Below are positions 1 through 38,176 of a DNA stretch of 38,176 nucleotides, piece by piece. Position 1 is the stretch's first letter. Each line of letters begins with the position of its first letter. Position numbers and translations under genes: made by a program. The DNA comes from a virus, in IMG/VR virus record IMGVR_UViG_3300044641_001867, positions 1 to 38,176 of that record; one strand, given 5' to 3'. The notes below the pieces were generated by a model, which saw nothing but the letters and a program-made list of their open reading frames with translations, searched no databases and was not told the DNA's origin.

Positions 1-3000
1 AGGGCTAAACTCAATGTAGTTTGCGCGTTCACGAAGTGCTTGCGCATAATCGCGACGCTCAGTGTCCGTTAAAGAGATCCAAGGGCTATTTGCAGTTTGG
101 TCTACTGGGTTGCTTAAACCATTTGCCAAGAAACGCAAGTCATCAGGGTTTAATTCTGGATCATTCAGTGAATTTTCAAGTTGAATCATAGCGTCATTGC
201 GCTGATTGTCAAGATCTGCGCCACGAATCTGGCGTGCAGGCGCAATTTCTAAATTTGCAAGGTTGTCACGAATTGCAAGGCTCATATCCAACAATGCGGC
301 AGCAACAGCCTCGCCTTCAAAACCTTCTCTACGAAGTGGCTCAAGCTGCTCGCGAATATCGGTGCGTAGCCCATCTAACATACGACCAAGTTCTGGAAGA
401 CTATCCATGGTTACAGCGTCTAAACCGCGCTCACTCAACAACCGCCCAAATGTACGTGAGAATGAGCGAACTGCACCGTCTGTTACGTTATCACGCAAAG
501 CTTCTACTTGCATGGTAAACTCTGCGTCAATCCCACCCATGATAGCTTCGGCCTCAGGCTGCGAAGGCTCGCGATATGCCATACGTGCAGGTTCTGCGTC
601 ATTAGTTCTTTCTTCGATTAGATCTGCAATGCCTCGCAATGCACTAGCAACTGCAACGTGCTCGTTTGCTGCGCCATAGCCGCGCAAAGCATTTGCGTAA
701 GCTACGGGATCTGTTCGTGCGTCAACTGCTTGCGCAATGCGGTATGCAATAGTGCCAACGCGGTTGCCAACACCCGGAGTTGTATTTTCCCCAACTGCGT
801 TTGAAATAGTATCTATGATGTCTGCAATGGCAGTTGTCATCATAGGCTCACGTGCAGCAGGTGGTGGCGCTGCAGGCCCTACTTCAGGCTCCCAATCGCG
901 TATGTACGCGGTATACATATCGTCAGCCAACTCGTTTAATGCAGTCTCAACAGACCCTCGTGCAGCAACTTCAGCAGCGCCTCGTAATGCTGTAATAAAT
1001 GCGTCAGTATCGCGCGCAGGATCAAGACCACTGCCTTCAGTAATCACGCGGAAAACTGAGCGCAGTTCATCGCCTGCATCAACACCCATTTGTCGATCAA
1101 GTTGCAATGCTGCGTCATGCGTCATTCGTAAGTAATCAGGCGCTTGCTCAGGCGCTAAACGGTTAGCATTTCTCCAACGCTCATACTCATCAACCAACCC
1201 TTGTTGGCCTGCATCAGTGTTGCCTTCTTGCCCATTCCAGCGATCATCAAAATTTTCAAGCCATTGTACTTGCGCAGGTGACAAACGATCACGGTAGTCT
1301 AGCAATAACTCAGTGGTGTCCATGTCAGGTATTGGATCACCTTGCATTGCAATAGCACGAGGTCGAGGTTGCGCAGCTTCTGCAGCTTGGCGATTGCGCG
1401 CGTAATCAGTGTACCCACTTATGTCATCCATTAGATCTGCAATACCTTCTGCGATGATATTGGAAACTATACGTGGGCTATTGGCATATTCTGATTCCAA
1501 GTCATATAAGCGCTGACGGGTAAGTTCTAATGCGCGAACAGGACCTTGCGCAGTTTGGTACGCATTAAAGTAATCTCGAGTGTCTTCAAAGAAAGCTACT
1601 GCAGTAGAAGTTTGATGATCTTCGCCTGCTTCTTCAAGATCACGTCTTACTGTGTCAAGCACATTATCAATCGACGATGACACAGCGCCTGCAACATACG
1701 CATCTAAGCTTTCACTAGGGCGTTGCGACATAACGGCAGGCACAGGCACTTGCGGCTCATTGGCTTGAAGGGCTTCAATGTAATTGCGCAAGTCAGTACG
1801 TGTAATAAACCTTGGCAGATTTGATACGTCGTATTTTTTAAACTCAGACACAGGCATATTAATGACATCAGCCAGCGCGCTATTTGACATGCGCTTGCTA
1901 TCATAAATATCTAAGTTGTCATTTAAGTTATGACTAACTCCGCGAATCGAGTCTTCACGGCTGTTAAGGTAAGACTTAATGCCTTCAACATACGCAGGCT
2001 TAACCTCTTTATTCTTACGACCTGACGCAAAGTTAATATCAAACTTACCAGATGCGCTAGGGTTAAAGTCAAAAATGGCAACAGGCTCACCAGTAACAGT
2101 ATCCCTGAAGCTAACCATTTGTGAGCCTTGCGCAACCGCGTTAATGTATGATCCCCTTGGGCTGGTTGCGTCAGGGTTGCGCTGTCCTGTGACAATGTCG
2201 TAAATAGGAATGTACTGACGATCGCCTGTGCCGGGATGCCAAGGGTTAGGCTTGCCTCGCACATTACCGCCTTCACCAATACAAACGTCCAATGCCAAAG
2301 TGTCTTCACTAACCAGCTTAGCAACTTCTTCAGGCGTAAAGCGATTGGTAATCTCCAACGCGCCAACGTTGCCAAAAATCTTGTCATTAGGAATATGCGT
2401 ATCTGCTGACAACTTAAATTGCGTGTCAGCAGCAGTCTTGAATTGCTTTTCTTTAGCTTGCGCAAGCTTTTCAGCAGCAATCCTACCTTCCGCAGTATCG
2501 CGTATGTACTTCTCAACAGTCATCTTTGGAACTTTGTCCAAATGTATTTTACGCGACATCACATCGCTGTAAAAGCTTTTTGCAAGATCCTCAAAGCCAA
2601 GATTGCGTAATTGAACTGGATTTGCTACATATGCGCGCTCAGTATCAGGCGTTTGCATCAATGCGGGGTAAAACTGCTGCTCACTGTATTCAATGTTTTC
2701 TTTTAAGTCTTTGGCAGTAGGCGCGTTAATTGCCTTGTCAGTTGCGTTCTCATACGCAACGCCTAAACGCAAATTGTCAACCACCTTTTGCTGTTTCTTA
2801 TACGCCACGTTTGCTTTGTCAGACTCGCGCGATGCCTGTGCAAAAGGTTCATACCTCCCAAGGTTCATACCTTCGACAACAACGCCTGTAGTAGGATCAA
2901 TTGCCCCGTAGCCTAATTGCTTGGCAATAGTCTCTTGTTCGCGTTTACGAGTTGCGGCGTCGCCTGATTGTTGTACCAAGTCAGCTAATTTCTGATCTGC

Positions 3001-4422
3001 TGCAGCCAACGCCTCATCAGTTGGCGTTTTGGCAGGCATGCCTGCGGCGGTACGTTTGGCGCCAATCTTGCTGCCTGACATGTCTGCGCTGTCAAATACT
3101 TCTGACGGCGGGTAAAACGTTAAGCCTTGACTTGCCAGCTTGGCTGCAGGCTCATTAGGCGTACCCACCTTTTCAATGATGTAATTGGTAAACTGAGAGT
3201 TAAGCCAATTGGCTGCAGCTTCATGCATTGCAGGCAACTCTTCTGCAGACGGCAAGTCAAGCGCAGCTCTGTACTGTATGCCATTAGGCGTTTGCAAAAA
3301 CTGGTCATACATCTCTAATGAGTGCGCAGCCGAAGCTTCTCTATCACCGAATCTGGCTTTATACGCCGACAACGCCGCGCCTTCTGATGGGGCGTCAGGG
3401 TACATCTCATTAGCTTTTTGCTTAAGAAAGGACTCAAACGCTCTGCGTGCAGACGCAGCTTCAGGCTTACGCAGGATGTTGTTTTGTATCTCATCCAATG
3501 CTTGCGCCGGCGTCATTGTTGTGCTGTCAATAACGTTGTTAATGATCTCTTGCGCAGGGGCGTAAGTCGCGGCGTCTGCCTTTGCAGTTGCAGGCAACGT
3601 AGCAGATGTAACCCTTGACCCTTCAGGTCGCATGGCGTACAGCTTAGGGTTTGTTGGCTGCATGGAAGCAGGGAGCCCAGGGATAGGCGGCAACCCTTGC
3701 ATTTCCCTTTGCGCCATGATGTCGCCAATGCTATCAGCAACGCCTTGAAGCTTGGCGCCGTACGTTGGCTGACCTGTGATTGGGTCTAACCTTTGCATGC
3801 CAGATTGCGCGTTGTAGAAGTCTGTAGGTATATCCTTGACTTGCCTGCCTACTCTTGTGGCCTCAGCGCCCATAACCCGCAGATCATTAGGGGTAAATGC
3901 TGGGCGGCCGGTCGATAGCTGCCCAAGGTACGCAGGCAGATCAGCCATGTACGGCGCAATCGCGCTTGTGAATTCCTGCGCCATTGGCGTTTGCGGCGCG
4001 TTCTGTTGCATGAACTGCGTGGCAACTTTCTCGGCGTATGCAGGCGCTTTGCCTGATGTGAATGTGCCAGCAGGTGATGTGGTTAAGCTTTCACCTACGC
4101 CTTTGACCGCAGCCACAGCTGGCACGGTGATGATGCCTGCAGCTTCACGCATGGACTTCGCCATCATCAGCGGATTGAACTTGGTGGCCAACGCGGTGAA
4201 GTTACCTGCAGCTGCGCCTAACGGGTCAGGCGGCGTTTGCGATGGTGGGACTGGTTTGCCGTACCCGGGGATCTGTGATGCCAAGGACTGTGGAGCTACG
4301 AACTTCTCCATCTGCTGCGGCGTAAGTCTGTTCTGCTTTGACAGCTCTAGATTCATTTGATCTAGTGTAGGACCACCGTCATCGCCTATGATGTTACCTT
4401 GCGGATCGTAGATTGCTGCCAT
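1..4422 (-). CDS. Giant polyvalent-type protein, 3' end outside window
   Basis: One uninterrupted minus-strand reading frame of 1474 codons starts at the ATG at 4422, 15 bases after the TerL stop, and leaves the window at base 1 without a stop. I checked the frame at its start, at internal points and at the left edge. The first ~350 residues are rich in Pro, Ala, Gln and Met and look flexible. Residues ~620-830 resemble the PcfJ-like domain of phage and plasmid large polyvalent proteins: a helical lead-in, then ALDVCIGEGG (Cys714), MVSFRDTVTGEP, and a basic SGRKNKEVKP segment. The rest is acidic and helical. Polyvalent proteins are often carried in the virion and injected with DNA to counter host defences. 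Its place directly after TerL, where a portal gene is usual, is odd. The family call is inference; a very long internal virion protein is the alternative. Confidence 0.7.
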   Translation of the reverse strand, partial: MAAIYDPQGNIIGDDGGPTLDQMNLELSKQNRLTPQQMEKFVAPQSLASQIPGYGKPVPPSQTPPDPLGAAAGNFTALATKFNPLMMAKSMREAAGIITVPAVAAVKGVGESLTTSPAGTFTSGKAPAYAEKVATQFMQQNAPQTPMAQEFTSAIAPYMADLPAYLGQLSTGRPAFTPNDLRVMGAEATRVGRQVKDIPTDFYNAQSGMQRLDPITGQPTYGAKLQGVADSIGDIMAQREMQGLPPIPGLPASMQPTNPKLYAMRPEGSRVTSATLPATAKADAATYAPAQEIINNVIDSTTMTPAQALDEIQNNILRKPEAASARRAFESFLKQKANEMYPDAPSEGAALSAYKARFGDREASAAHSLEMYDQFLQTPNGIQYRAALDLPSAEELPAMHEAAANWLNSQFTNYIIEKVGTPNEPAAKLASQGLTFYPPSEVFDSADMSGSKIGAKRTAAGMPAKTPTDEALAAADQKLADLVQQSGDAATRKREQETIAKQLGYGAIDPTTGVVVEGMNLGRYEPFAQASRESDKANVAYKKQQKVVDNLRLGVAYENATDKAINAPTAKDLKENIEYSEQQFYPALMQTPDTERAYVANPVQLRNLGFEDLAKSFYSDVMSRKIHLDKVPKMTVEKYIRDTAEGRIAAEKLAQAKEKQFKTAADTQFKLSADTHIPNDKIFGNVGALEITNRFTPEEVAKLVSEDTLALDVCIGEGGNVRGKPNPWHPGTGDRQYIPIYDIVTGQRNPDATSPRGSYINAVAQGSQMVSFRDTVTGEPVAIFDFNPSASGKFDINFASGRKNKEVKPAYVEGIKSYLNSREDSIRGVSHNLNDNLDIYDSKRMSNSALADVINMPVSEFKKYDVSNLPRFITRTDLRNYIEALQANEPQVPVPAVMSQRPSESLDAYVAGAVSSSIDNVLDTVRRDLEEAGEDHQTSTAVAFFEDTRDYFNAYQTAQGPVRALELTRQRLYDLESEYANSPRIVSNIIAEGIADLMDDISGYTDYARNRQAAEAAQPRPRAIAMQGDPIPDMDTTELLLDYRDRLSPAQVQWLENFDDRWNGQEGNTDAGQQGLVDEYERWRNANRLAPEQAPDYLRMTHDAALQLDRQMGVDAGDELRSVFRVITEGSGLDPARDTDAFITALRGAAEVAARGSVETALNELADDMYTAYIRDWEPEVGPAAPPPAAREPMMTTAIADIIDTISNAVGENTTPGVGNRVGTIAYRIAQAVDARTDPVAYANALRGYGAANEHVAVASALRGIADLIEERTNDAEPARMAYREPSQPEAEAIMGGIDAEFTMQVEALRDNVTDGAVRSFSRTFGRLLSERGLDAVTMDSLPELGRMLDGLRTDIREQLEPLRREGFEGEAVAAALLDMSLAIRDNLANLEIAPARQIRGADLDNQRNDAMIQLENSLNDPELNPDDLRFLANGLSNPVDQTANSPWISLTDTERRDYAQALRERANYIEFSP

Positions 4423-4436
4423 GTGCGCACCTTAAG

Positions 4437-5864
4437 TTAGACGGCGTAGGGGTTTACCCGCTTAGGACGATCTTCTTCGTAGTCGTCATCCGGATTGTAT
4501 ACCGGGTCGATGGAAATTAACCCTAAGTCTCGCAAAAGCCTTAACGCCTGAGATGTGGAGTCCACCAAGTCGTCGTGCCGGACTTCGGGGAAGGAGCATA
4601 GCTGGCTGATCAAAGGCTCGGCCCAATCACGAGCCATGCCCGCATTGACCGAGGACTCGGGAATGTAGACTCTGCCCTTGGCAATGATGGGGGCCACGAT
4701 ATTAAGGCGTGTAGTCTTGTCAGCGTTCCCGGGATTGTAGCTTCTCACAGGCAGACCGGCGCGTTGCAGATCTTGGATAAGCTGCGTGCCAGCTGACTTG
4801 TCCTCGATCAGGATCATGTCCACCTTTTTCCCGTGACCAAACTCGTTCCCATCACCGTAAATGGCGGTGGACTCCTCGATCACCTTGGGTCGCAACTCGG
4901 GATACTGCATGTACTCCTCCCAGCAGTCAATGAGCATGACACTCATAGCTTTGTCGGGACTTGGCCTAAAGATACCCCACACAGTGCAGGCAGTCGGGTC
5001 GTTCTTGGTCTTGTCACTGGTCGCGCAGTCATAAGACTGAAGCACGTATTCAAATCTAGGCAGCGGCTTCTCGTTGTCCCACAGCTTGAACCAATCACGC
5101 TTAATGATGCCGGCCTCTTCAGGATCTAGAATCTCGGCGTAGATCTCTTGGCGCCCGAGCTTCGTGCCTTCGTACTGCAGAATCTGCGCTTTGAACGATG
5201 GGGCGAGGTTGTGGATGTTGTCGTACGTGCTGGCCTTGGTACATATCACATCCTCGCCATCTCTGTTCACCAGATCCACGATCAATGGCTTGGGCTTAGG
5301 CGTTGTGGTGCATAGCATCTTAGGCTTCTGTCCTAAGCGCATGCCGAATTGGATCATGTCCCAGGATTCGTCAAGGTAATCCCATGCAGCAAGCTCGTCG
5401 AACCAGCCTCCGTGGAACTGCGGACCTCGGAATCGTGAGGGCTCAGACGCCGGAATCCCTTTGATCAGCGACCCGTTGATGAGGACTATCTCATGCAAAG
5501 ATCGCGTGTAGTGGTGGATCAACTGCTCTGGGATCACCGTTGTCAGACCTGAGTCGCCTTCAAAGCAAACATCGCGTACATCGGATGATGTGGGCGCGGA
5601 GACAAGCCATCGAGTCTTAGGATGCGTCCAAGCTTCGTACCACAGCCACTCGGCAGCTGCGCGAGTCTTGCCTGCGCCTCGGCCTGCGAGCAAAAGCCAT
5701 ACAGTCCACCAGTCGCCGGGTGGAGGGATCTGATGGTCGTTGGCTATTGTGAGCCAAGCTTGCCGCGCCTTGTGCACAGCTTTGCGCTCATCGGCCATGC
5801 GGTTAAGATCAGGACCCTTGCGGATCCGATCCGCGAACTCACTTGCTCTTGCTTGGCTTAGCAT
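4437..5864 (-). CDS. terL: Terminase large subunit (TerL)
   Basis: This is the DNA-packaging motor: an ATPase that pumps DNA into the prohead and a nuclease that cuts the concatemer. The 475-residue length is usual for the family. Walker A is GRGAGKT at residues 61-67 and the Walker B region is WFDE at 154-157. A TTTPKPKP segment near 187 fits the coupling motif. RNase H-type nuclease acidic residues are visible as SYDC (Asp279), IEDKSAG (Glu354, Asp355) and HDDLVD (Asp431, Asp432). The start overlaps the end of TerS by 26 bases, so the two are translated together. ATG 5864 gives a normal N-terminus; Met23 is a possible alternative start. Confidence 0.96.
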   Translation of the reverse strand: MLSQARASEFADRIRKGPDLNRMADERKAVHKARQAWLTIANDHQIPPPGDWWTVWLLLAGRGAGKTRAAAEWLWYEAWTHPKTRWLVSAPTSSDVRDVCFEGDSGLTTVIPEQLIHHYTRSLHEIVLINGSLIKGIPASEPSRFRGPQFHGGWFDELAAWDYLDESWDMIQFGMRLGQKPKMLCTTTPKPKPLIVDLVNRDGEDVICTKASTYDNIHNLAPSFKAQILQYEGTKLGRQEIYAEILDPEEAGIIKRDWFKLWDNEKPLPRFEYVLQSYDCATSDKTKNDPTACTVWGIFRPSPDKAMSVMLIDCWEEYMQYPELRPKVIEESTAIYGDGNEFGHGKKVDMILIEDKSAGTQLIQDLQRAGLPVRSYNPGNADKTTRLNIVAPIIAKGRVYIPESSVNAGMARDWAEPLISQLCSFPEVRHDDLVDSTSQALRLLRDLGLISIDPVYNPDDDYEEDRPKRVNPYAV

Positions 5865-6309
5865 CGGCTTGGCGCGTAGCTAGGAGATCATCCAACAAAG
5901 CTTGTGAGAAGTCATGCACCACATCAACTTGCACAGGCCCATCATTCTTGCCTGTGACCTCGAGCTTGGAGTTCTCACGGTATTGCTCGGGGAAGCGTGC
6001 TGCCATGCTTCGGCTCCACAACCCAGTGTTGAGTCTCACGCCGCCAGGAGCTTCGCGTATGTGATCATGCGCCAAGTCTTCCCAGTATGAGAGCGCATCA
6101 AGTCGTGCTTGATCCAAGGCACTACGAAAATCCTCGTGTGCTCCTTCCCAAGCATTCATGTTGTGGATGCCAATGTTCAAGCGCGAGCAGATTTGCCAAC
6201 GCGATAAGCCCTCTTTGCCGAGCTCCATGATGGCATCGCAGTATGCGGGATCGTACTTTGAAGGACGTCCCAAGAACTTTCCGTTCTTAGATGGTGTCTT
6301 TGTAGTCAT
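5839..6309 (-). CDS. terS: Terminase small subunit (TerS)
   Basis: This 156-residue protein lies immediately upstream of TerL and overlaps it. The N-terminal third (GRPSKYDP, then EGLSRWQICSRLNIG at about residues 34-48) forms a helix-turn-helix typical of small terminases that recognise pac or cos DNA. The C-terminal tail is acidic, then Lys/Ser-rich, and probably contacts TerL. The upstream DNA has no obvious Shine-Dalgarno sequence. A TATGAT hexamer lies 12 bases before the ATG, so a very short or leaderless transcript is possible. The GGTAAC repeat cluster starts about 50 bases upstream and could regulate this promoter. The assignment rests on context, HTH and length. Confidence 0.88.
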   Translation of the reverse strand: MTTKTPSKNGKFLGRPSKYDPAYCDAIMELGKEGLSRWQICSRLNIGIHNMNAWEGAHEDFRSALDQARLDALSYWEDLAHDHIREAPGGVRLNTGLWSRSMAARFPEQYRENSKLEVTGKNDGPVQVDVVHDFSQALLDDLLATRQADAKPSKSK

Positions 6310-24162: not shown

Positions 24163-25212
24163 TCAATCCTCAACATTGCTAGGTGGGGTGTAGATATCTG
24201 ACACTGATCTTGGCCCGTAAATATCATCAATTTGCGATTGCAAATCTGGATACATAAATGGATTTCCTTGCAATGCAGTACCTTCAGCCAAGTTAGGGCC
24301 GCCAAAAAACTTACTTAATGCGTTGCCTGCTGCTGTGCCAAACGGCGTTTGACTTACGCCGCCAATGATTGAGCCTAAGCCTGCAATCTGCGCCAATGGA
24401 GAAGCAGAGTAAGCTCCAGGGATTGGGCCTGTGTAGGTATTAGCAACAGTTGTTGGTACGTTGTAACCGCGCAATGCTTGTGCGCCTAAGTTGGCAGCTG
24501 TCAATGGAAACAGTTGCTGATTCTGATTGATAGTCTGTTGTTGGCTGCCCATTGTAGCCAACGCATTAATGTCTGCCAAGTTAGCGGCTTGGCCTGCAGT
24601 TGCAAGACTGCCGTATTGCTGAGCTGCGCCTAGTTTTTGTGCCTGATCAGCTTGTGCAGCACGCAACGCTTCAGTATAACCAGATTGCAATGCCTGTGAC
24701 TGCGCAGCTTGTGTATTCATTAAGCCGGTGTTAATGGCTTGCCCAAGAACCTCGGCGCCACGCTTAGACCCGAATTGACCAGTACCAACTGCTGATGCCG
24801 TGGCCTGCGGTGCTAAGAATTGCTGAATATTACGCTGCCCTAATGAACCTAATGCATCCACAACCTGCGTTGTGTATGGATTCATAAACTGTTCAATTCT
24901 GCTTTGCCCGTCAGGAATTAACTGACCTGTCTTTGGATCTACAGGCTTTGCAGTAATATCTGCTTTTCCAATATCACTCGTTGATTGCAATGCTTGAGTA
25001 AAGTACCCAGGGTACGTATTGGTTGTTGTTGCAGCTTTTTCAAAAGCCGCAGTTTGCAGTGGCTGCGCATTTGCGTATTGGGCGTTTGAAACCCCTGCAG
25101 TAACGCCTTTTGCCAAGTCACTTAAATAATCAGTGTACCAAGATGGTGCGGACGTTACCTGATTCTGCGTCGTGGTGATATTCGGCAGTGGGCTGCCTTG
25201 CATTAAACTCAT
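24163..25212 (-). CDS. Putative DNA ejection protein, 349 aa
   Basis: ATG 25212 overlaps the stop of the preceding 1517-residue gene (ATGA). The sequence is rich in Gln, Ala and Thr with helical repeats (TAAFEKAATTT, then QSGYTEALRAAQADQAQKLG) and contains PNPYTTQ-like and GQFGSKRG segments common in internal virion proteins of aquatic podoviruses. The C-terminal Gly-rich hydrophobic stretch (QIAGLGSIIGGVS) could cross a membrane. It is probably part of the set injected ahead of the DNA; no enzymatic site is visible. Confidence 0.63.
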   Translation of the reverse strand: MSLMQGSPLPNITTTQNQVTSAPSWYTDYLSDLAKGVTAGVSNAQYANAQPLQTAAFEKAATTTNTYPGYFTQALQSTSDIGKADITAKPVDPKTGQLIPDGQSRIEQFMNPYTTQVVDALGSLGQRNIQQFLAPQATASAVGTGQFGSKRGAEVLGQAINTGLMNTQAAQSQALQSGYTEALRAAQADQAQKLGAAQQYGSLATAGQAANLADINALATMGSQQQTINQNQQLFPLTAANLGAQALRGYNVPTTVANTYTGPIPGAYSASPLAQIAGLGSIIGGVSQTPFGTAAGNALSKFFGGPNLAEGTALQGNPFMYPDLQSQIDDIYGPRSVSDIYTPPSNVED

Positions 25213-28200
25213 TTCATGCCTTTCAAATACGACAGGGGTGACTTAGCTTTAGGTGGTATTTTACCCACTGGAGCTGATCTTTTGTGTTTTCTAATACTTT
25301 CACGCATTTTATCCAAAACTAAGGCCCCAGCCTTATTTGAGCCATTACCCAATGCTGCAACCGTATCCGCATCAAACACGTACTCGCCATCCGCCAACAT
25401 AGCCGGTATGCTATCTGATTGACCATCGCCTGCGCCTTGCACGTAATTGCCAGTCTTTCCTGTGATGAACTCGGGAATATGCTCTACTTGGCCGCCTCTA
25501 GCGTAACCTGCTAACGGGCTTCCGCCAAGGTATTTTAATCCTGCTGCTGTCATATTGCCTGTGTCGTACCCAGGAATTACAGTGCTATTATCGTTGCCGC
25601 TTACAGGATTCCCGGGAGATGGGGCACCTGCAAGCTTAGCGCCAACAAAGCTTGTGCCTTCTTCAGTTTCAGCGGCCGTAGCCATATTAGGTTTAATGCG
25701 GCCTGTCAAGACTTGTAACAGTGCAGGGTCCACATTAGCCAGTTGCGGGTAAAGTTGCGTGAGTTGCGCCATTCCAGAGTTGTCCTTAATAGATGCGCCA
25801 GCCAGCATTGTAGGGGTCAAAGTCCCGGGCAACGCGCCAGTGCTTGTTGGCATTGTAACCGCGCCAAGAGCCCCTGACTGCTGTTCCTTTTTAGGCGGCG
25901 TCTTCGTAGTTGGCGTCTTTGTAGTTGTTGTCTTTGTAGGGTCTGTTGTCGTAACATCATCAACAGGTGGTACAACTTCAGGTGGTACTACAGGCGGCTC
26001 AGGTGGTACAACAGGCGGCACTACTGGAGGCTCAGATGGTACTACAGACAAAGCACCAGGTGGTACTACAGGTGGTGGTGTTCTATCAATCCAGTCAACG
26101 CCAACCAAAGGCGTAGTTGTTGGAGTTACAGCTGGCGTTACAGCAGGAGTCACAGCTGGCGTTACAGCAGGAGTCACAGCAGGAGTCACAGCTGGCGTTA
26201 CAGCAGGAGTTACAGCAGGAGTAACTGCCGGAGTTACAGCAGGAGTCACCGCTGGCGTTACAGCTGGAGTAACCGCTGGGGTCACAGCTGGGGTCACAGC
26301 TGGCGTTACAGCTGGCGTCACAGCTGGCGTTACAGCAGGAGTCACAGCAGGAGTTACAGCTGGAGTAACCGTTGACAAAGGATTTGTTATTACTGCGCCA
26401 TTAGGCGTAGTCGTAACAGCAGGTGTTGTAGTAAGCGCGCCTGTAGTTGCAGGTGTTGTACTTACTGGTGTTGTACTTACTGGTGTTGTACTTACTGGTG
26501 TTGTAGAAAGTGCGCCTGTAGTTGCAGGTGTCGTACTTACTGGTGTTGTACTTGCGGGTGTTGTAGAAAGCGCGCCTGTGGTTGTAGGTGTTGTACTTAC
26601 TGGTGTCGTACTTGAAGGTGTTGTGCTTACTGGTGTTGTACTTGCAGGTGTTGTAGAAAGTGCGCCAGTTGTTGTAGGCGTTGTACTTACTGGCGTTGTT
26701 GTAAGCGCACCAGTTGGTGTAGTACCTATAAGCGATCCTGTACCAAAAGTAGGCTCAATTTTTGCAGGACCTAAAACACTATTGACATAGTTTGTTAAGT
26801 TTGTATCTTGCTCACTAGTAGTTTCGCCTGAGAATACTTGTTCAAATGTAAGATCAGTGCCATCTGCGCTTGTTGCTACAACATTGCCTGTACCAGTTAA
26901 GTTGTTAGGCAAAATGCTGCCTGTAACATCACTACCTAAGCCTACAGAATCGCCATACAGCATGGAGGCGCCAACCGTGACGCTATCGCCATTACTTGAT
27001 GTTGCAATAGGCGTGCTAGAATCTACTGTGGACAGATCAATATTGCTATTGCCATCTAAAACTTGCTGAACAGTAACAGGGTTGCCTGAATAATCTCTAC
27101 CAATTACTGCGCCGGTATCAATGACAGTTCCAGGTGTGGACATTGCTGTTTGTACTGTGCCGCCAATAAAGCTTTCAAACACGCCATTAGATAAAGCCGT
27201 ACTCCAGCTTGCAGTATTGGGGTTTACCGTGTAAGCAGTAATGTAGTTTTGCGCTGCACCTGCAACAAAGTTAGACAATATACCTGCTGCAGTATTAGTT
27301 GCATAACCTGCGCCAACGGATGTAAGCGTCTTATCAACCAAGCTCTTCATTAAAGGCGCGACAAGTGCTTTATCAGCAATAAAGTCAGGCCCCATTTCCG
27401 CCAATGCATTTAAGCCGGCGCTAATGTATGACTTATCTTGCGCAACTTGTTTACTGTCGCCTTGCGCAATTGACTTTTGATACGTTTCTTTGCCTGATGA
27501 GCCAAAGACTTCCATGAAGGAGCCAACAACGCTTGCAGTACCTTGGATTAGTCTTGCGCTACTAAGAGCTAAAGAACCACCACCTGTCATTAATGCGGCG
27601 CCAATTTGAATTGCAGTTTCAGGAAGTTCTTCAACAGCTTCTGTGCCTGCAATATCAAAGAAGCCAATAGGGTTCTTAATAATTGCTGCGCCAATAATCT
27701 TAGGCTTATCCCAAAAGTCAGCAGACTCTGATTGCGCCACGGCTTGCATAATCCGATTTTTTTGCACATCAATGCCATAACCATCTTTGCTTTGTGCAAG
27801 CTCGGCAAGCTCTTGTCCGATTTTTGTGGCAGTATTACTATAATCAAAATCACCAGTTAGTTGCGCGTATGTATTACCAATGTTGGTAATTAAACTGCCT
27901 GCGCCTCTAATGGTAGTGCCTAGTGCTTGTGCACCCATGGCGCTTAAATTGTCTGCTGCCGATCGCTGACCGGACTCCATTAGCCTTTGTGTTTCAGCAT
28001 TCGACTCATTTGGCGCATTGCCTAAGACTAAAGTGTTATTTAGTGCAGTAAGTCTTCTAGTTTCTGCATTGCTTTGATTGCTTGTACCTGCATCTCTTGC
28101 AGCGGTATCATTCTGCGCAGCAACTGTTTGCGATGCGTTTGTTACTGTAGACAAGTTAGTCTTGTTTAACGCGTTAATCTTAGCATCAGCTGCCGCAGCG

Positions 28201-29762
28201 GCCTCAGCTGCAGTGCCTGTGTTGTATGTTTTACCATTCCACTCAAATGTAGCATTAGGGCCGAACGCTAAACGGTTAGCAGCAAATGCTTCATTAAAGG
28301 ATAATGGTTTAGTTGTGGTTGCGGCATTTCGATCTATTGCGCCTTGCAAATCACCAAACTCAGTATCAACGTATGTATTAGTATCAACAACAGGGGTAGT
28401 AACTGTGCCAAGGGCGCCTGTGCCTGATGTATCTGCAACTGTTGTACCTGTGCCTGACGTATCTGCAACTGTTGTGCCAGTGCCTACTGTGCTGAGAGCG
28501 CCAGTGCCTGTGCCAATGTTATTAACATTCTGAATAGCGTCAAGAGTTGCTTGTGTATTAGCATCAACACCGGTTAGTGTTACGCCGTTTCCGGCATCAG
28601 ATACTACGTTATTGTTGACACTTGCTAAGACGCTAGGCGTACCTGTGCCTGTAGTAGTTGTTGCTGTGGTATCTGCAACTGTAGTGCCTGTGGTCGAATC
28701 GCCGGTAAGATTAAAGTCATCAAACGATCCGCCGGTACCAGTACCTACAGTACTAAGCGCGCCTGTGCCACTTGTGTCTGTAGTTGTTGTTCCTGTTGTA
28801 TCTGTTGTAGCAAGAGTATTATTAAGGTTGTTTACTGCAGTAGAGCCCGCAGTAACTACGCCAGAATTTTGTAGTGCAGTAACTGCTGCATTTGCGGCTG
28901 CAGTAGTTGCGCCTGTAGCGCCTGCAAACGTTGCCGCCGCAGCTGCAACACTGCCTGTTGTAGCTAACGTAGCAGCTGTAGCGCCTAACGCAGCATCGCC
29001 TGTCTGTGCAGTAACTGTTGTGCTTACAACAGAGCCAAGAAGCGCGGTGCCTAGATTGTCAGTATTGCCTGTTACTACAGCATTAGTTACAGCCGTTGCC
29101 GCGTTATTAACAACTTTTTGCAAGAATGGGTCATCTACAACGCCTGTTAATGCACTAACCACAGTGTTGTTTGCCACTGACGACAAATTACCCATCACTT
29201 GAGACTTAATCGTATTTTCTACAATTTGATCTAATGGTACGCCTTGCGCTGTTTGAAATGCAGCATTGGCAATTGCAGTGCCTGTTGTTGTAGACACGCC
29301 AAGTGTTGACGCAATCTCAGCGCCAATAACAGGAAGAAAATACGCAGCGGCTAACCCAATAATTTGATTGGTATAGTCTTTTACTTCTTGAGTTTGCGTT
29401 GTTTGTTGATACTCACCAGTAGGGGTGTAGTGTTTAACATCAGTACCCGTTGCTACTGCGTCATTAATGCCGCCTGTTGTTTTATACGAAGATACGCTTT
29501 CAACAGGCCCCAATTGTTGATCTTCGCCAGAACCTATAATTTGATAATTGGGTTGCACCCATGTGTCGCCAAGCAACACAGCTTGACCTGGGGGTACAGT
29601 TGCTGCAACACGCGCAATAATGTCATTTTCAGATGTTCCAGTGGCAGCCGCCATTTGCGCTGGCGAAACACCGTATGTAGCCATGTTTGATGCAATGTCA
29701 GCATCGCTCATGCCGGGGTTGGCATTTAAAAAATCTAAAATTTGTTGACTAGAAACTGCCAT
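25209..29762 (-). CDS. Giant internal/ejection-type virion protein, 1517 aa
   Basis: This is the largest complete gene here. The N-terminus (SSQQILDFLNANPGMSDADI) is a small helical domain used for recruitment in similar phage proteins. Then follow Ala/Thr/Val-rich hydrophobic stretches (120-320), a Thr/Gly low-complexity part, and a helical middle domain (~600-900) with EELPETAIQIGAALMTGG and EMGPDFIADKAL. A Thr/Ser/Pro repeat region comes next, with 20 tandem TPAV units near residues 1131-1213, then a PPVV-rich piece. The C-terminal ~110 residues (GGQVEHIPEF, DGQSDSIPAMLADGEYVFDA, GNGSNKAG) form a conserved domain I recognise from phage structural proteins. Likely packed in the virion and delivered with DNA; no protease or lysozyme motif is evident. 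It abuts the small gene upstream. Confidence 0.72.
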   Translation of the reverse strand: MAVSSQQILDFLNANPGMSDADIASNMATYGVSPAQMAAATGTSENDIIARVAATVPPGQAVLLGDTWVQPNYQIIGSGEDQQLGPVESVSSYKTTGGINDAVATGTDVKHYTPTGEYQQTTQTQEVKDYTNQIIGLAAAYFLPVIGAEIASTLGVSTTTGTAIANAAFQTAQGVPLDQIVENTIKSQVMGNLSSVANNTVVSALTGVVDDPFLQKVVNNAATAVTNAVVTGNTDNLGTALLGSVVSTTVTAQTGDAALGATAATLATTGSVAAAAATFAGATGATTAAANAAVTALQNSGVVTAGSTAVNNLNNTLATTDTTGTTTTDTSGTGALSTVGTGTGGSFDDFNLTGDSTTGTTVADTTATTTTGTGTPSVLASVNNNVVSDAGNGVTLTGVDANTQATLDAIQNVNNIGTGTGALSTVGTGTTVADTSGTGTTVADTSGTGALGTVTTPVVDTNTYVDTEFGDLQGAIDRNAATTTKPLSFNEAFAANRLAFGPNATFEWNGKTYNTGTAAEAAAAADAKINALNKTNLSTVTNASQTVAAQNDTAARDAGTSNQSNAETRRLTALNNTLVLGNAPNESNAETQRLMESGQRSAADNLSAMGAQALGTTIRGAGSLITNIGNTYAQLTGDFDYSNTATKIGQELAELAQSKDGYGIDVQKNRIMQAVAQSESADFWDKPKIIGAAIIKNPIGFFDIAGTEAVEELPETAIQIGAALMTGGGSLALSSARLIQGTASVVGSFMEVFGSSGKETYQKSIAQGDSKQVAQDKSYISAGLNALAEMGPDFIADKALVAPLMKSLVDKTLTSVGAGYATNTAAGILSNFVAGAAQNYITAYTVNPNTASWSTALSNGVFESFIGGTVQTAMSTPGTVIDTGAVIGRDYSGNPVTVQQVLDGNSNIDLSTVDSSTPIATSSNGDSVTVGASMLYGDSVGLGSDVTGSILPNNLTGTGNVVATSADGTDLTFEQVFSGETTSEQDTNLTNYVNSVLGPAKIEPTFGTGSLIGTTPTGALTTTPVSTTPTTTGALSTTPASTTPVSTTPSSTTPVSTTPTTTGALSTTPASTTPVSTTPATTGALSTTPVSTTPVSTTPVSTTPATTGALTTTPAVTTTPNGAVITNPLSTVTPAVTPAVTPAVTPAVTPAVTPAVTPAVTPAVTPAVTPAVTPAVTPAVTPAVTPAVTPAVTPAVTPAVTPAVTPAVTPAVTPTTTPLVGVDWIDRTPPPVVPPGALSVVPSEPPVVPPVVPPEPPVVPPEVVPPVDDVTTTDPTKTTTTKTPTTKTPPKKEQQSGALGAVTMPTSTGALPGTLTPTMLAGASIKDNSGMAQLTQLYPQLANVDPALLQVLTGRIKPNMATAAETEEGTSFVGAKLAGAPSPGNPVSGNDNSTVIPGYDTGNMTAAGLKYLGGSPLAGYARGGQVEHIPEFITGKTGNYVQGAGDGQSDSIPAMLADGEYVFDADTVAALGNGSNKAGALVLDKMRESIRKHKRSAPVGKIPPKAKSPLSYLKGMK
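26122..26373. repeat. 12-bp tandem repeat encoding TPAV
   Basis: About 21 in-frame 12-base units (plus strand GGNGTNACNGCN pattern) run without interruption through the 1517-residue gene. Third codon positions vary freely (GTT, GTC, GTA; GCT, GCA, GCC) while the encoded TPAV is constant. This points to selection on the protein repeat rather than very recent slippage. Copy number may vary among relatives. Confidence 0.88.
26410..26712. repeat. Degenerate STTP-coding repeat tract
   Basis: Adjacent to the TPAV array, the plus strand repeats GGTGTTGTACTTACT and GTAGAAAGYGCGCCTGT units. They encode TTPVSTTP and TTGALSTTP on the minus strand. Units are 15 to 45 bases with point changes. Together with the TPAV array they form a ~200-residue Thr/Pro-rich stalk or linker. 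Confidence 0.75.
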
Positions 29763-30025: not shown

Positions 30026-32006
30026 AAGGTCTTGAATCTCCAACATCAGCGTCTAATAAGACCTTGCCTACTTGGTAGTTACCACCTGCCACATTTGAAA
30101 CAAACTTTAATCGCAACTCACGACGTTGCTCACGCATGTCAATCTTACCTGTGCTAGGTCCAAAAGTATAGGGGCCTGTTGTCTCATCAGCAATCTGCGC
30201 AAATGGTCGACCCGTAATATACAGATCCATGTTACCAGATTGAATAAAGTCAGGCTCTACACGCTCTAGTCTTAACCATCTATTCTCACCAACAGGGCTA
30301 GGCTGTGATGGCCCGCCTGCAACCAACCCTAGATCACTAGTTTCAAAGTATGACTCAATGGCTGTGGAAAGCGCCCCACTAACTTTATCAGTGCCAATCT
30401 CATTTTGGTACAACGACACAAAGCTCATTAGTGTGTTAACTGTCAAAACAAAGCCTGCACCACCTGCAATCACTGCTGATAAAGTATTACCAACCGCGTA
30501 GTTAATTCCATGCCCGTTAATCACAACTGATGTAACAACGTTGCCAGCCACAGTAATATTAGCCGTAGCACCAGTACCGGCGCCACCTGTTAGTGGCGTG
30601 TTGTTATACGTACCATTGGTATAACCAGATCCTGCATTGGTAATAGTGGCAGTTAAGATACCGCCGGTTGCATTGACGTTCCAGTCAGATGAAACTGGAA
30701 ACTGGAAGATTTGAGAGAAGAAGCCTGCAGATCGCTGTGCCCCTACAGCAAAACCTGCGTCATACCATACGTTTTCACGTGTGTTGTAGATAACAGCGTT
30801 ATTGCATTCGGTGGCATTGCCTGATGGGTAAAACCACCAGATCTCACCAAAACGTGGAACCTTAGTTACCCAAACTTTTTCGCGTTGAGCGTAGTTTAGA
30901 TTGTCAAAAAAGTAATTTTGATTAAAGCTATTAGGAATCTCTTTTACAACACCGTTATAAAGCAAGAACCTATCAACGCCGCACCAGTAATACACGCCAT
31001 CGTACTCAATCACCGACTGGCTTGAAAGAATAGATGACTGGCTAGAGATTAAGTCATACCGCCAAAACTGTGGAGGCGTGCCTGCGCCGCCAATATAGGA
31101 CACTCGAATTAAAGAATCCAAGCTCCAAAAGAGGCCCGATGGTGCATTTGATCCACCACGTACAGGTAATCCTTGGACAATCTTGCCGGTGGCCACTGAG
31201 ACCTCGTTGGCATCAGCAGACACCCAATCATTCACATTTCCAGCTGAGCAATTCTTAATTAGACCATCGTTGCCATAGACAAACACGTAAGGGTGCAAAG
31301 TAACTACACCACCTGAGACAGAAACCTGATTGTCAAATGTTAGCGTAATGCTAGAGCCGTTGGCTGTTGCAGGTGCTGAAATAATCAACGTGGTGGATGC
31401 AATCGATACTACAGTAGCGCCAGCCGGTATGCCTGTGCCTGTTACCAACTGACCTGCTCCAATTTGCGTATTGACAGCAGACATTGTAATAGAGGCTGAT
31501 CCACTAGTAATAGTGGCAGCAACTGCTGTAAATACACCAATAGGCGACAAACTTGTGCCTGTAATTGACCCGCCAAGAACAGGTGTATTAGTGTTATTGT
31601 CAATCAGCGTAAGGTTCTGCCCTGGGTGTGCAAGTAATAAGTTATTGCCTGATCCCGTGCCATCAAAAAATGCATCAAATTGCCAAAGGTTATTGTCGTT
31701 GGCCGTAAACCCTGTCAAAGTCATATCAGTAATGCCTGAGCCAATACCACTATTGCTAATTGGCAGCACTTGCAAACCGCCTGAATAGCCATTAAAAACG
31801 TTGTTAAAGCTTTGTTGCGGGTTCAAATAAATGCCACGACTTGGACCTGCCAAGTCATTTACAATCTCTCTGTAACCACCCATCTTACGTGGGCGGCCGC
31901 GCTGAAACCTTACCCAGCGGCCGTCAGTATAAGCGTCAGCATCAAAGGTGGTGCCATCACGCTGTATTCCGGGCTTTGTATCTAAGGCAAAAACCTTTTT
32001 GGTCAT
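30018..32006 (-). CDS. P22 gp10-like head-tail stabilisation protein
   Basis: This 662-residue protein starts like the phage stabilisation family: GIQRDGTTFDADAY, then DGRWVRFQRGRPRKMGGY (residues ~14-45). The body is a beta-propeller-like series of strands with YDGVYYWCG and WWFYPSG segments. It should form the ring that seals the portal and joins the tail needle or nozzle. Two inserted beta modules stand out: one near 165-225 (GAGQLVTGTGIPAGATVVS) and one near 450-525 (GSGYTNGTY, then GTGATANITV). Both types recur in unrelated phage virion proteins and probably project outward. ATG 32006 overlaps the previous stop by four bases. Confidence 0.82.
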   Translation of the reverse strand: MTKKVFALDTKPGIQRDGTTFDADAYTDGRWVRFQRGRPRKMGGYREIVNDLAGPSRGIYLNPQQSFNNVFNGYSGGLQVLPISNSGIGSGITDMTLTGFTANDNNLWQFDAFFDGTGSGNNLLLAHPGQNLTLIDNNTNTPVLGGSITGTSLSPIGVFTAVAATITSGSASITMSAVNTQIGAGQLVTGTGIPAGATVVSIASTTLIISAPATANGSSITLTFDNQVSVSGGVVTLHPYVFVYGNDGLIKNCSAGNVNDWVSADANEVSVATGKIVQGLPVRGGSNAPSGLFWSLDSLIRVSYIGGAGTPPQFWRYDLISSQSSILSSQSVIEYDGVYYWCGVDRFLLYNGVVKEIPNSFNQNYFFDNLNYAQREKVWVTKVPRFGEIWWFYPSGNATECNNAVIYNTRENVWYDAGFAVGAQRSAGFFSQIFQFPVSSDWNVNATGGILTATITNAGSGYTNGTYNNTPLTGGAGTGATANITVAGNVVTSVVINGHGINYAVGNTLSAVIAGGAGFVLTVNTLMSFVSLYQNEIGTDKVSGALSTAIESYFETSDLGLVAGGPSQPSPVGENRWLRLERVEPDFIQSGNMDLYITGRPFAQIADETTGPYTFGPSTGKIDMREQRRELRLKFVSNVAGGNYQVGKVLLDADVGDSRPYG

Positions 32007-33238
32007 GTAAACGTGCCTCCAGCAATGCCGGTGGTAAACGTACCAGAGCCTGTAACCGTTATGCCTGTAGCAGTTGCCTTAAGCCTTTGTGTGCCAAGCA
32101 CTGACACTCCAAATTCACCTGCTGCAGGACGATACACGCCAGTACTTGTTTCTGCAGCAAAGTTAAGAGATGGCGTGCCTACGCTACCATCCAAAAGACT
32201 TACTGTTGACGCGCCTGCCTGCGTTGTGTTAGCATTTAAAAAGTTAACACCATCGCAAATTAGTGTAGCCTGCTGCCCCGGTGGGATTGTGGCAGTAAAA
32301 CCTAATCCTGTAGTTACCGTAAGACTAAAGCCATTGTCAGTTGTTTGGTTTGAAATAACGTACAAGTTAACAATTGGCGGAAAAGTTACCGTTACGTTGC
32401 TTGTTAGATTGCCAACATACTCTTGAATGTTATTTGCAGCTTCATTGTTGGTCAGTAAAACAGCGCCGCCTGTGACACTTTTTGTTAACGCGGTAAATAC
32501 AAACGAAGTACTTACGCCGTAGCCAATGGTCACGTAGGCTGTACCTGTGCAAACAATAAACGCAGACTCAGTTGGGTTGAAAGTCTTGGTGCTATTGCCG
32601 TCAATCAACTCTGCGCCAGTGCATGAGACAGTAAATGAACCTGTGCCGTTATTCTTAAACAACGTAAACCAGTTATTGCCTAACGTAGCAGCGGCTGAAA
32701 GTGTTGCAGTTCCTGCACCGCCACTCCACACTCTGGTTTGTGCTCTATCTGTAGCTGCAAATGTAGTGCCTGTTGTAATTGCCGCTGACGGATGACTTTG
32801 GTTAAGTGTTGCCCCACTTGCAACTAAGCCATAACCTGCCAAAGTAGCCGCATCTGCGCCAGATGTGCCTACCCCAAAGGCAATAACACCCCAAGTGCCT
32901 TGACTGGTTGAATTAGTTGTTATATAGATATACTTGGATTCTCCAGCAGCCACTGAGACGATGGTATTTGTGCCTGCATAATCCTTAACAGTGAAGGTAT
33001 TGGCCCCAATATTACGAATTAACGCGTCGTTGCCAACAGATGTCTGATCCGCAGGCGGCATGTACATGCTTAAGCCGGCAGTGCTGGCAGTCACCTGCAT
33101 AATACGAGCAGCGTAGTCAGCGTTGGTCGTGCTGTTGGAAGGCCAGTTTAGTTGCGTGTTGGCAGTTAGCGTAACGGCGCGAAAGCTAACATCCGTTGGC
33201 TGGATAACATCACCGGTGAATGGGCTTACATAGCTCAT
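32003..33238 (-). CDS. Tail appendage or fibre-like structural protein
   Basis: A 411-residue protein rich in Thr, Ala, Gly and Asn with regular beta-strand patterns and few Lys or Glu, typical of fibres and decoration proteins. N-terminal residues (SYVSPFTGDVIQPTDVSFRA) look like an attachment motif. The C-terminal end (NFAAETSTGVYRPAAGEFG, then LKATATGITVTGSG) matches repeats seen in phage fibre proteins, such as the STGvyRp motif. It sits between the adaptor and the gp10-like gene, overlapping both by four bases, so it may attach at the neck. Exact role is inferred. Confidence 0.68.
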   Translation of the reverse strand: MSYVSPFTGDVIQPTDVSFRAVTLTANTQLNWPSNSTTNADYAARIMQVTASTAGLSMYMPPADQTSVGNDALIRNIGANTFTVKDYAGTNTIVSVAAGESKYIYITTNSTSQGTWGVIAFGVGTSGADAATLAGYGLVASGATLNQSHPSAAITTGTTFAATDRAQTRVWSGGAGTATLSAAATLGNNWFTLFKNNGTGSFTVSCTGAELIDGNSTKTFNPTESAFIVCTGTAYVTIGYGVSTSFVFTALTKSVTGGAVLLTNNEAANNIQEYVGNLTSNVTVTFPPIVNLYVISNQTTDNGFSLTVTTGLGFTATIPPGQQATLICDGVNFLNANTTQAGASTVSLLDGSVGTPSLNFAAETSTGVYRPAAGEFGVSVLGTQRLKATATGITVTGSGTFTTGIAGGTFT

Positions 33239-37774: not shown

Positions 37775-38176
37775 TTATTCGGTTACAAGAACAAAACAGT
37801 ATTGAACAATTGCCGACCTATTACCGCCGCCGTTGTCTTGCCAAGCGCAATACACAGCATCGCTAGGGCCAAGCATCACATCAGTGTTGTAGTAGGCGTT
37901 GTAAGGGCCAGAAGTTGTTGAGCCAAAAGGCGTTGCCTGAACCAGTCCAGCGGAATCATTGCCCATCAATGGAGAGTATTCAGTGGCGCTAACTCCTTGC
38001 CCGTGCCATCCAGTTCGTGTGTTGCTTGGAGAAAAACTAATCATCCTTTTTGGAACAGGACCAGACGTTGCCGCAAATGCCGAAAAATTAGGGCTAGATT
38101 CACCGCTTCTTAAAACACCAAAAGCGCATTGTCCGTAAACTGTAGAAAAGTCAGAAGTCCAACTTAAATACCCAAC
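37775..38176 (-). CDS. Tail fibre C-terminus, 5' part outside window
   Basis: The frame is open from the right edge to TAA at 37775-37777, 133 residues. There is an internal Met at 38044, but the codons upstream of it to the edge are open and of the same composition, so the real start lies beyond 38176. The sequence is rich in Ser, Gly, Thr, Tyr and Trp (GYLSWTSDFSTVYGQ, later WHGQGVSATEYSPLMGNDSA), as in a receptor-binding fibre tip. No conserved family is named. Confidence 0.72.
   Translation of the reverse strand, partial: VGYLSWTSDFSTVYGQCAFGVLRSGESSPNFSAFAATSGPVPKRMISFSPSNTRTGWHGQGVSATEYSPLMGNDSAGLVQATPFGSTTSGPYNAYYNTDVMLGPSDAVYCAWQDNGGGNRSAIVQYCFVLVTE

Follow-up and report, generated by a model that had tools for sequence, protein, structure and literature searches.

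A giant polyvalent-type protein gene beside the phage terminase and a short tag recurring in proteins of the terminase-portal interval

Injected phage proteins and the giant gene

Polyvalent proteins of phages are encoded among the virion genes and are probably packaged (Iyer et al. 2017, PMC5512222). The DarB protein of phage P1 (250 kDa) is packaged in the head and believed to undergo translocation; its gene adjoins that of the portal, and a reporter fused to its first 30 residues is packaged too. No BLAST consensus exists among the N termini of the P1 Dar proteins (PMC9024508). The internal proteins of T4 (IPI etc.) are diverse injected anti-defence proteins that share nothing but a capsid-targeting sequence (PMC3012670). 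Little is known of how giant polyvalent proteins are selected for packaging. Here we describe a giant polyvalent-type protein gene that lies directly after the gene for the terminase large subunit (TerL) in an uncultured viral contig of 38,176 nucleotides (IMG/VR record IMGVR_UViG_3300044641_001867; the whole stretch is called the window below), and a short tag that its family shares with otherwise unrelated proteins encoded between TerL and portal in related phages.

We consider it probable that the giant is a polyvalent protein that is packed in the phage head and injected with the DNA, and that the tag is its sorting signal to the prohead. The protein would be made with the head genes, brought by its tag to the prohead (to the portal or the scaffold) and loaded before or with the DNA; it would then enter the bacterium together with the DNA, and there its domains may act, possibly as enzymes, on host or defence targets. 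The tag would work like the capsid-targeting sequences of the T4 internal proteins and of DarB.

Compared with the phage polyvalent proteins of PMC5512222, the giant is alike in its large multi-domain make-up, its location among virion genes and its domain swapping, and ART-PolyVal, GNAT and other domains of that repertoire occur in proteins of the same slot in related phages; in contrast, a shared short tag confined to one slot was not found in the available part of that article. At least two functionally disparate domains are predicted for the family, a PcfJ-like core together with DUF6973, 'EIQSD' or JAMM-like C-terminal domains in relatives, and the gene lies near late virion genes of a phage of the portal-terminase type, with TerL, portal and major head protein as neighbours. 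On these grounds the polyvalent-type reading of the preliminary description holds in large part. We found no confirmation for its remark that PcfJ is a known domain of polyvalent proteins, as PcfJ is absent from the main text of the article. With DarB the giant shares its large size, a portal-adjacent gene and, probably, an N-terminal packaging signal (at most 30 residues in DarB), whereas here a single motif recurs in unrelated proteins, and at C termini and between domains too. The likeness to the T4 internal proteins lies in diverse proteins sharing one short sequence; those of T4, however, are small and present in many copies per head, while here the proteins are giant and some carry repeated tags.

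The tag and the terminase-portal slot

Successive searches gave 34, then 57, then 80 tblastn-confirmed loci with relatives of the giant protein in uncultured viral contigs, and complete relatives are 1228 to 2404 amino acids long. About 14 residues long and helix-like in its pattern, the tag follows approximately P-[ST]-[ILV]-[DE]-x-M-[RK]-x-[AE]-L. The copy near the N terminus of the window protein (Table 1) has its counterpart at the extreme C terminus of relatives (PTTDQMRYALMMRRK), which carries the same motif. Among 41 distinct complete members the tag is found near the N terminus in 30, near the C terminus in 28 and at both ends in 28, with no interior copy in their 68,146 amino acids; shuffled sequences give an expectation of 0.02 terminal matches. 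A DNA scan of viral contigs returned family members and one unrelated open reading frame (ORF) in locus L137, and a look-alike, RVKDYMNYELMERM, in a portal-like protein was taken as a chance match. Against cultured phages, tblastn gave matches only at E 7, with a 27-residue query that has little power.

In MW202545.1 the interval between TerL and portal is filled by an otherwise unrelated GP88-domain protein with three copies of the tag, which led to the prediction that tagged proteins occupy this slot in other phages with related TerL. A TerL profile scan gave more than 591 loci, and tags were counted on the 33 that contain both TerL and portal. There, slot proteins have 44 strict tags in 46,104 amino acids, distributed over 32 of 49 proteins and 27 of the 33 loci, and none was found in the portals (22,823 amino acids), the TerLs (15,386) or the other ORFs (44,846) of the same loci; shuffled sequences have approximately zero. 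The slot counts are not independent, since modules are common to many slot proteins, and the pattern was refined on the same data, so that the zero counts in control genes are the stronger part of this evidence.

Apart from the tag, the slot proteins are diverse. With tags masked, none matched the core family at E 1e-5. Pfam searches of 16 slot proteins identified ART-PolyVal in six (above cutoff), GNAT in two, GDSL lipase in one and ASCH in two, in addition to GP88, and several have tags between domains: one is predicted to consist of ART (residues 31-152), a tag at 169 and GP88 (702-814) (L161), and another of ASCH, tag, GDSL, tag and GP88 (L182). Phages whose TerLs are closely related (about 60% identity) and whose gene order is the same still differ in having unrelated proteins in the slot. 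Such filling by nonhomologous proteins is as expected of cargo, and we read the TerL-portal slot as a cargo locus for polyvalent effectors, in which the tag is probably a packaging (or processing) signal.

Processing would mean that the tags are cleavage sites for a phage protease, which would divide the polyprotein into separate effectors either as the head matures or once injection has taken place. In favour of this, several tags lie between recognised domains, as in L161 and L182, and metallopeptidase processing of polyvalent proteins has been proposed (PMC5512222). We nevertheless regard cleavage as unlikely: in the family of the window the tags stand only at the extreme ends, where cutting would free almost nothing, a helix-like motif of about 14 residues is long for a protease site, and no prohead protease was clearly identified.

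Returning to the tag as a sorting signal, it may be part of something wider. We put forward tentatively, as a proposal with somewhat less than even prospects, that in a large group of uncultured phages the TerL-portal interval is reserved for effectors. The unrelated giant polyvalent proteins encoded there would be directed to the particle by the same recurring tag, placed at termini and domain boundaries, and the tag would amount to a general and transferable cargo-loading code. Neither the tag nor the effector slot featured in the preliminary description. A tag that marks effectors of diverse content in one slot is a ready candidate for the signal by which giant polyvalent proteins are selected, and tag scanning could reveal further injected effectors. 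On the same reading, an action early in infection is predicted for the PcfJ-like and DUF6973 domains.

The giant gene, its core and its tail

The single open frame directly after TerL, as first described, is confirmed; its ATG lies 14 bases past the TerL stop (Table 1). About 330 codons are missing beyond the contig end, and in the nearest relative (L002, 87% identical, 1806 amino acids) the stop lies 332 codons past the end of the frame in the window. Ratios of nonsynonymous to synonymous substitution rates (dN/dS) against three relatives are 0.09 to 0.17 for residues 1-900 and 0.23 to 0.49 beyond residue 900, which identifies the frame as a genuine gene under purifying selection. The possibility that a frameshift joins two genes, named in the preliminary description as a finding that would refute it, is ruled out, as the relatives keep a single uninterrupted frame across this stretch. 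We also rejected the idea that the window closes into a circle through a 133-residue frame at its other end (37775-38176), which is in register by chance. This frame does not have the conserved C terminus of the family, and in relatives head and tail genes occupy many kilobases between the two sites; the window is therefore a linear fragment. In one relative (L030:1736-6805(+)) the giant gene is a mosaic, with residues 1-200 95 to 96% identical to L002, the middle approximately 22 to 56% and the end 89 to 95%, which suggests recombination.

Table 1. Features of the giant gene and its upstream neighbours in the window
Feature	Position	Strand	Remarks
Giant polyvalent-type protein gene, 5' part	1..4422	-	Single open frame, 1474 codons, ATG start, open at contig end
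Variable tail of helical modules, residues 900-1474	1..1725	-	Continues in relatives to C-terminal domain and second tag, neither of which the window includes
PcfJ-like alpha/beta domain, residues 678-840	1903..2391	-	Predicted order beta-alpha...alpha-beta-beta-beta-alpha-beta; insertion past CIG motif
Cys714 codon	2281..2283	-	Context ALDVCIGEGG in the window; LDHCVG in most distant relatives
Conserved, mainly helical core part, residues 160-677	2392..3945	-	Predicted long helical hairpin at about residues 464-556
N-terminal tag copy, residues 18-30 (PTLDQMNLELSKQ)	4333..4371	-	
Terminase large subunit (TerL)	4437..5864	-	Pfam Terminase_6N/6C; directly upstream of giant gene
Terminase small subunit (TerS)	5839..6309	-	

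The segment around Cys714, a residue invariant in 41 aligned sequences, had been likened to PcfJ. We modelled the core with AlphaFold2 (window residues 160-890, 41-sequence alignment; predicted local distance difference test score 85, predicted template modelling [pTM] score 0.67) and searched predicted viral structures with Foldseek. Behind one family member (28% identity), the best matches were PcfJ-like phage proteins (E 3.9e-11, 2.6e-8 and 1.7e-6), one unnamed protein (E 1.2e-8) and one DUF6973 protein (E 3.0e-5), the names being database annotations. When the family was compared by hhalign with 15 PcfJ proteins from phages and plasmids, the CVG/CIG and G..N motifs came into register at a probability of only 5 to 35%; single-comparison P values were 7e-5 (global) and 9e-4 to 8e-3 (local), and most other slices of the protein scored about zero. 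The likeness to PcfJ (pCF10 PcfJ and phage PcfJ-like proteins) thus consists of a fold-level match and of the motifs C-[VI]-G ... S-x-R-D ... P-x-A-T ... G-x-x-N in register. The differences are that Pfam PcfJ (PF14284) has no match in the window up to E 10, nor in 16 full-length and 4 more distant relatives, that an insertion of about 40 residues follows the CIG motif, that the residue before the Cys, a His in PcfJ (HCV), is a Val in the clade of the window, and that the domain is here part of a much larger protein with no adjoining PcfK or AcrIIA9 gene. The first assignment is therefore kept for the predicted fold, the motifs and the invariant Cys: the core domain is PcfJ-like at the fold level, outside Pfam PcfJ.

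A sequence search of the PDB with the core found nothing, and Foldseek against the PDB gave many GNAT acetyltransferases at E 0.2 to 0.8, which is below significance. VIA-align of the core with Hat1 gave Z 7.3 over 135 residues (root mean square deviation 4.4); its top matches overall were uninformative coiled-coil hairpins. The strand-helix order of the model is compatible with GNAT; a GNAT-like fold of the modelled domain can be taken only as a lead. At PcfJ loci from the comparison set, those of pCF10, Listeria phage B054 and a Streptococcus salivarius plasmid (L076:5874-7984(-), L078, L087), the PcfJ genes adjoin genes annotated 'Cas9 inhibitor AcrIIA9 family'. This adjacency, absent from the window, provides a weak link to counter-defence.

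Past residue 900, modules differ in number and order among members, and an AlphaFold2 model of the tail (pTM 0.31) had no Foldseek match at E<=0.001. The missing 3' part, whose recovery had been proposed, was read from relatives as helical modules, an exchangeable C-terminal domain and the second tag; all C-terminal domains described here come from relatives and lie outside the window. Pfam finds DUF6973 (PF22322) in 14 of 16 relatives, in the nearest one at 34.2 bits (cutoff 27) and past the window end, and a profile finds it in 21 of the 41 distinct complete members. The 'EIQSDAQK' ('EIQSD') domain occurs in 6 members across distant core clades (L065, L100, L104, L106, L117, L123), two members have both it and DUF6973, and no Pfam or cultured-phage relatives of it were found where tested. 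Two further members (L026/L027) end in a domain with an HxHP...PSxxD motif that is JAMM-like by eye only; its apparent presence in all members was profile drift. The remaining 14 have none of the three. By sequence comparison, then, the C-terminal domain is exchanged between family members.

These features can also be read as those of a structural part of the virion, i.e., an internal core, an ejection channel or a portal-linked component with no effector role. Long helical modules, strong conservation of the core and the position between TerL and portal would suit such a part, as would the neighbours in a sister clade (L092-L099 and L104), in which the giant gene is located elsewhere, directly after three large virion-type genes, one of them matching PHROG 'DNA ejection protein'. 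A structural component is, however, difficult to reconcile with unrelated proteins in the slot of phages with about 60% identical TerL and the same gene order, with the enzymatic effector domains predicted in the slot, and with the swapping of C-terminal domains among members, and we consider it improbable.

For the packaged and injected effector, the location in the head-gene block between TerL and portal, the ejection-type neighbours in the L092 clade, the PcfJ-like fold, the exchanged C-terminal domains and the tag with its confinement to the slot all speak in its favour. Several observations weigh against it. Relatives of the giant were found neither among cultured phage records nor in bacterial and archaeal genomes sampled at one per species. 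Conservation of the core extends to all relatives found, which fits an assembly function too, and neither the PcfJ-like domain nor DUF6973 has an established catalytic residue. The L092 clade has no canonical tag at either end, and 6 of the 33 TerL-portal slots have no strict match. The presence of the giant in the virion is no more than suggested by the tag and the genomic context.

Gene neighbourhood

In relatives on longer contigs the gene order is TerS-TerL-giant-portal, followed by a GroES-like co-chaperonin, a scaffold-like acidic protein and the major head protein. The portal (846 amino acids, PHROG portal E 9e-22) is the next gene after the giant. The giant gene thus separates TerL from a portal gene that is still present, and the first view that it takes the place of the portal is not upheld. 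These contigs reach 54 to 57 kb, so that the virus can hardly be called small, as it initially was. The co-chaperonin gene (L039:8302-8724(-), PHROG E 2e-8) lies in the portal/capsid interval and is annotated in MW202545.1 too; the stretch is absent from the window fragment. With a chaperonin cofactor in the same block, and with packaging evidence that is not direct, the giant could also be a late protein that acts unpackaged in the producing cell, in assembly or host takeover. This we judge very unlikely: the confinement of the tag to slot proteins has the character of a sorting signal, and location and domains match those of injected polyvalent proteins.

Some relatives, unlike the window, have an extra gene, encoding 343 to 436 amino acids, in the TerL/giant interval (L036:13597-14628(-), G002 41518-42561, G004 31924-33234), the product of which has a tag-like start, 'ELARMRAQMLAK'. 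Near the capsid genes, L036:204-656(-) encodes a 150-residue protein rich in KGG/TGG repeats (KTGGVIEKYATGGVIQKYKTGGKMKKAY), and its GG-x-V element also precedes many tags. The window contains a second giant protein gene (25209-29762 (-)), encoding 1517 amino acids here and up to 1899 in relatives, with an Ala-rich centre and variable length, for which no PHROG match was obtained. Its C terminus has 'SDSIPAMLADGEYVF' in a relative, and the protein recalls tape-measure or internal virion proteins.
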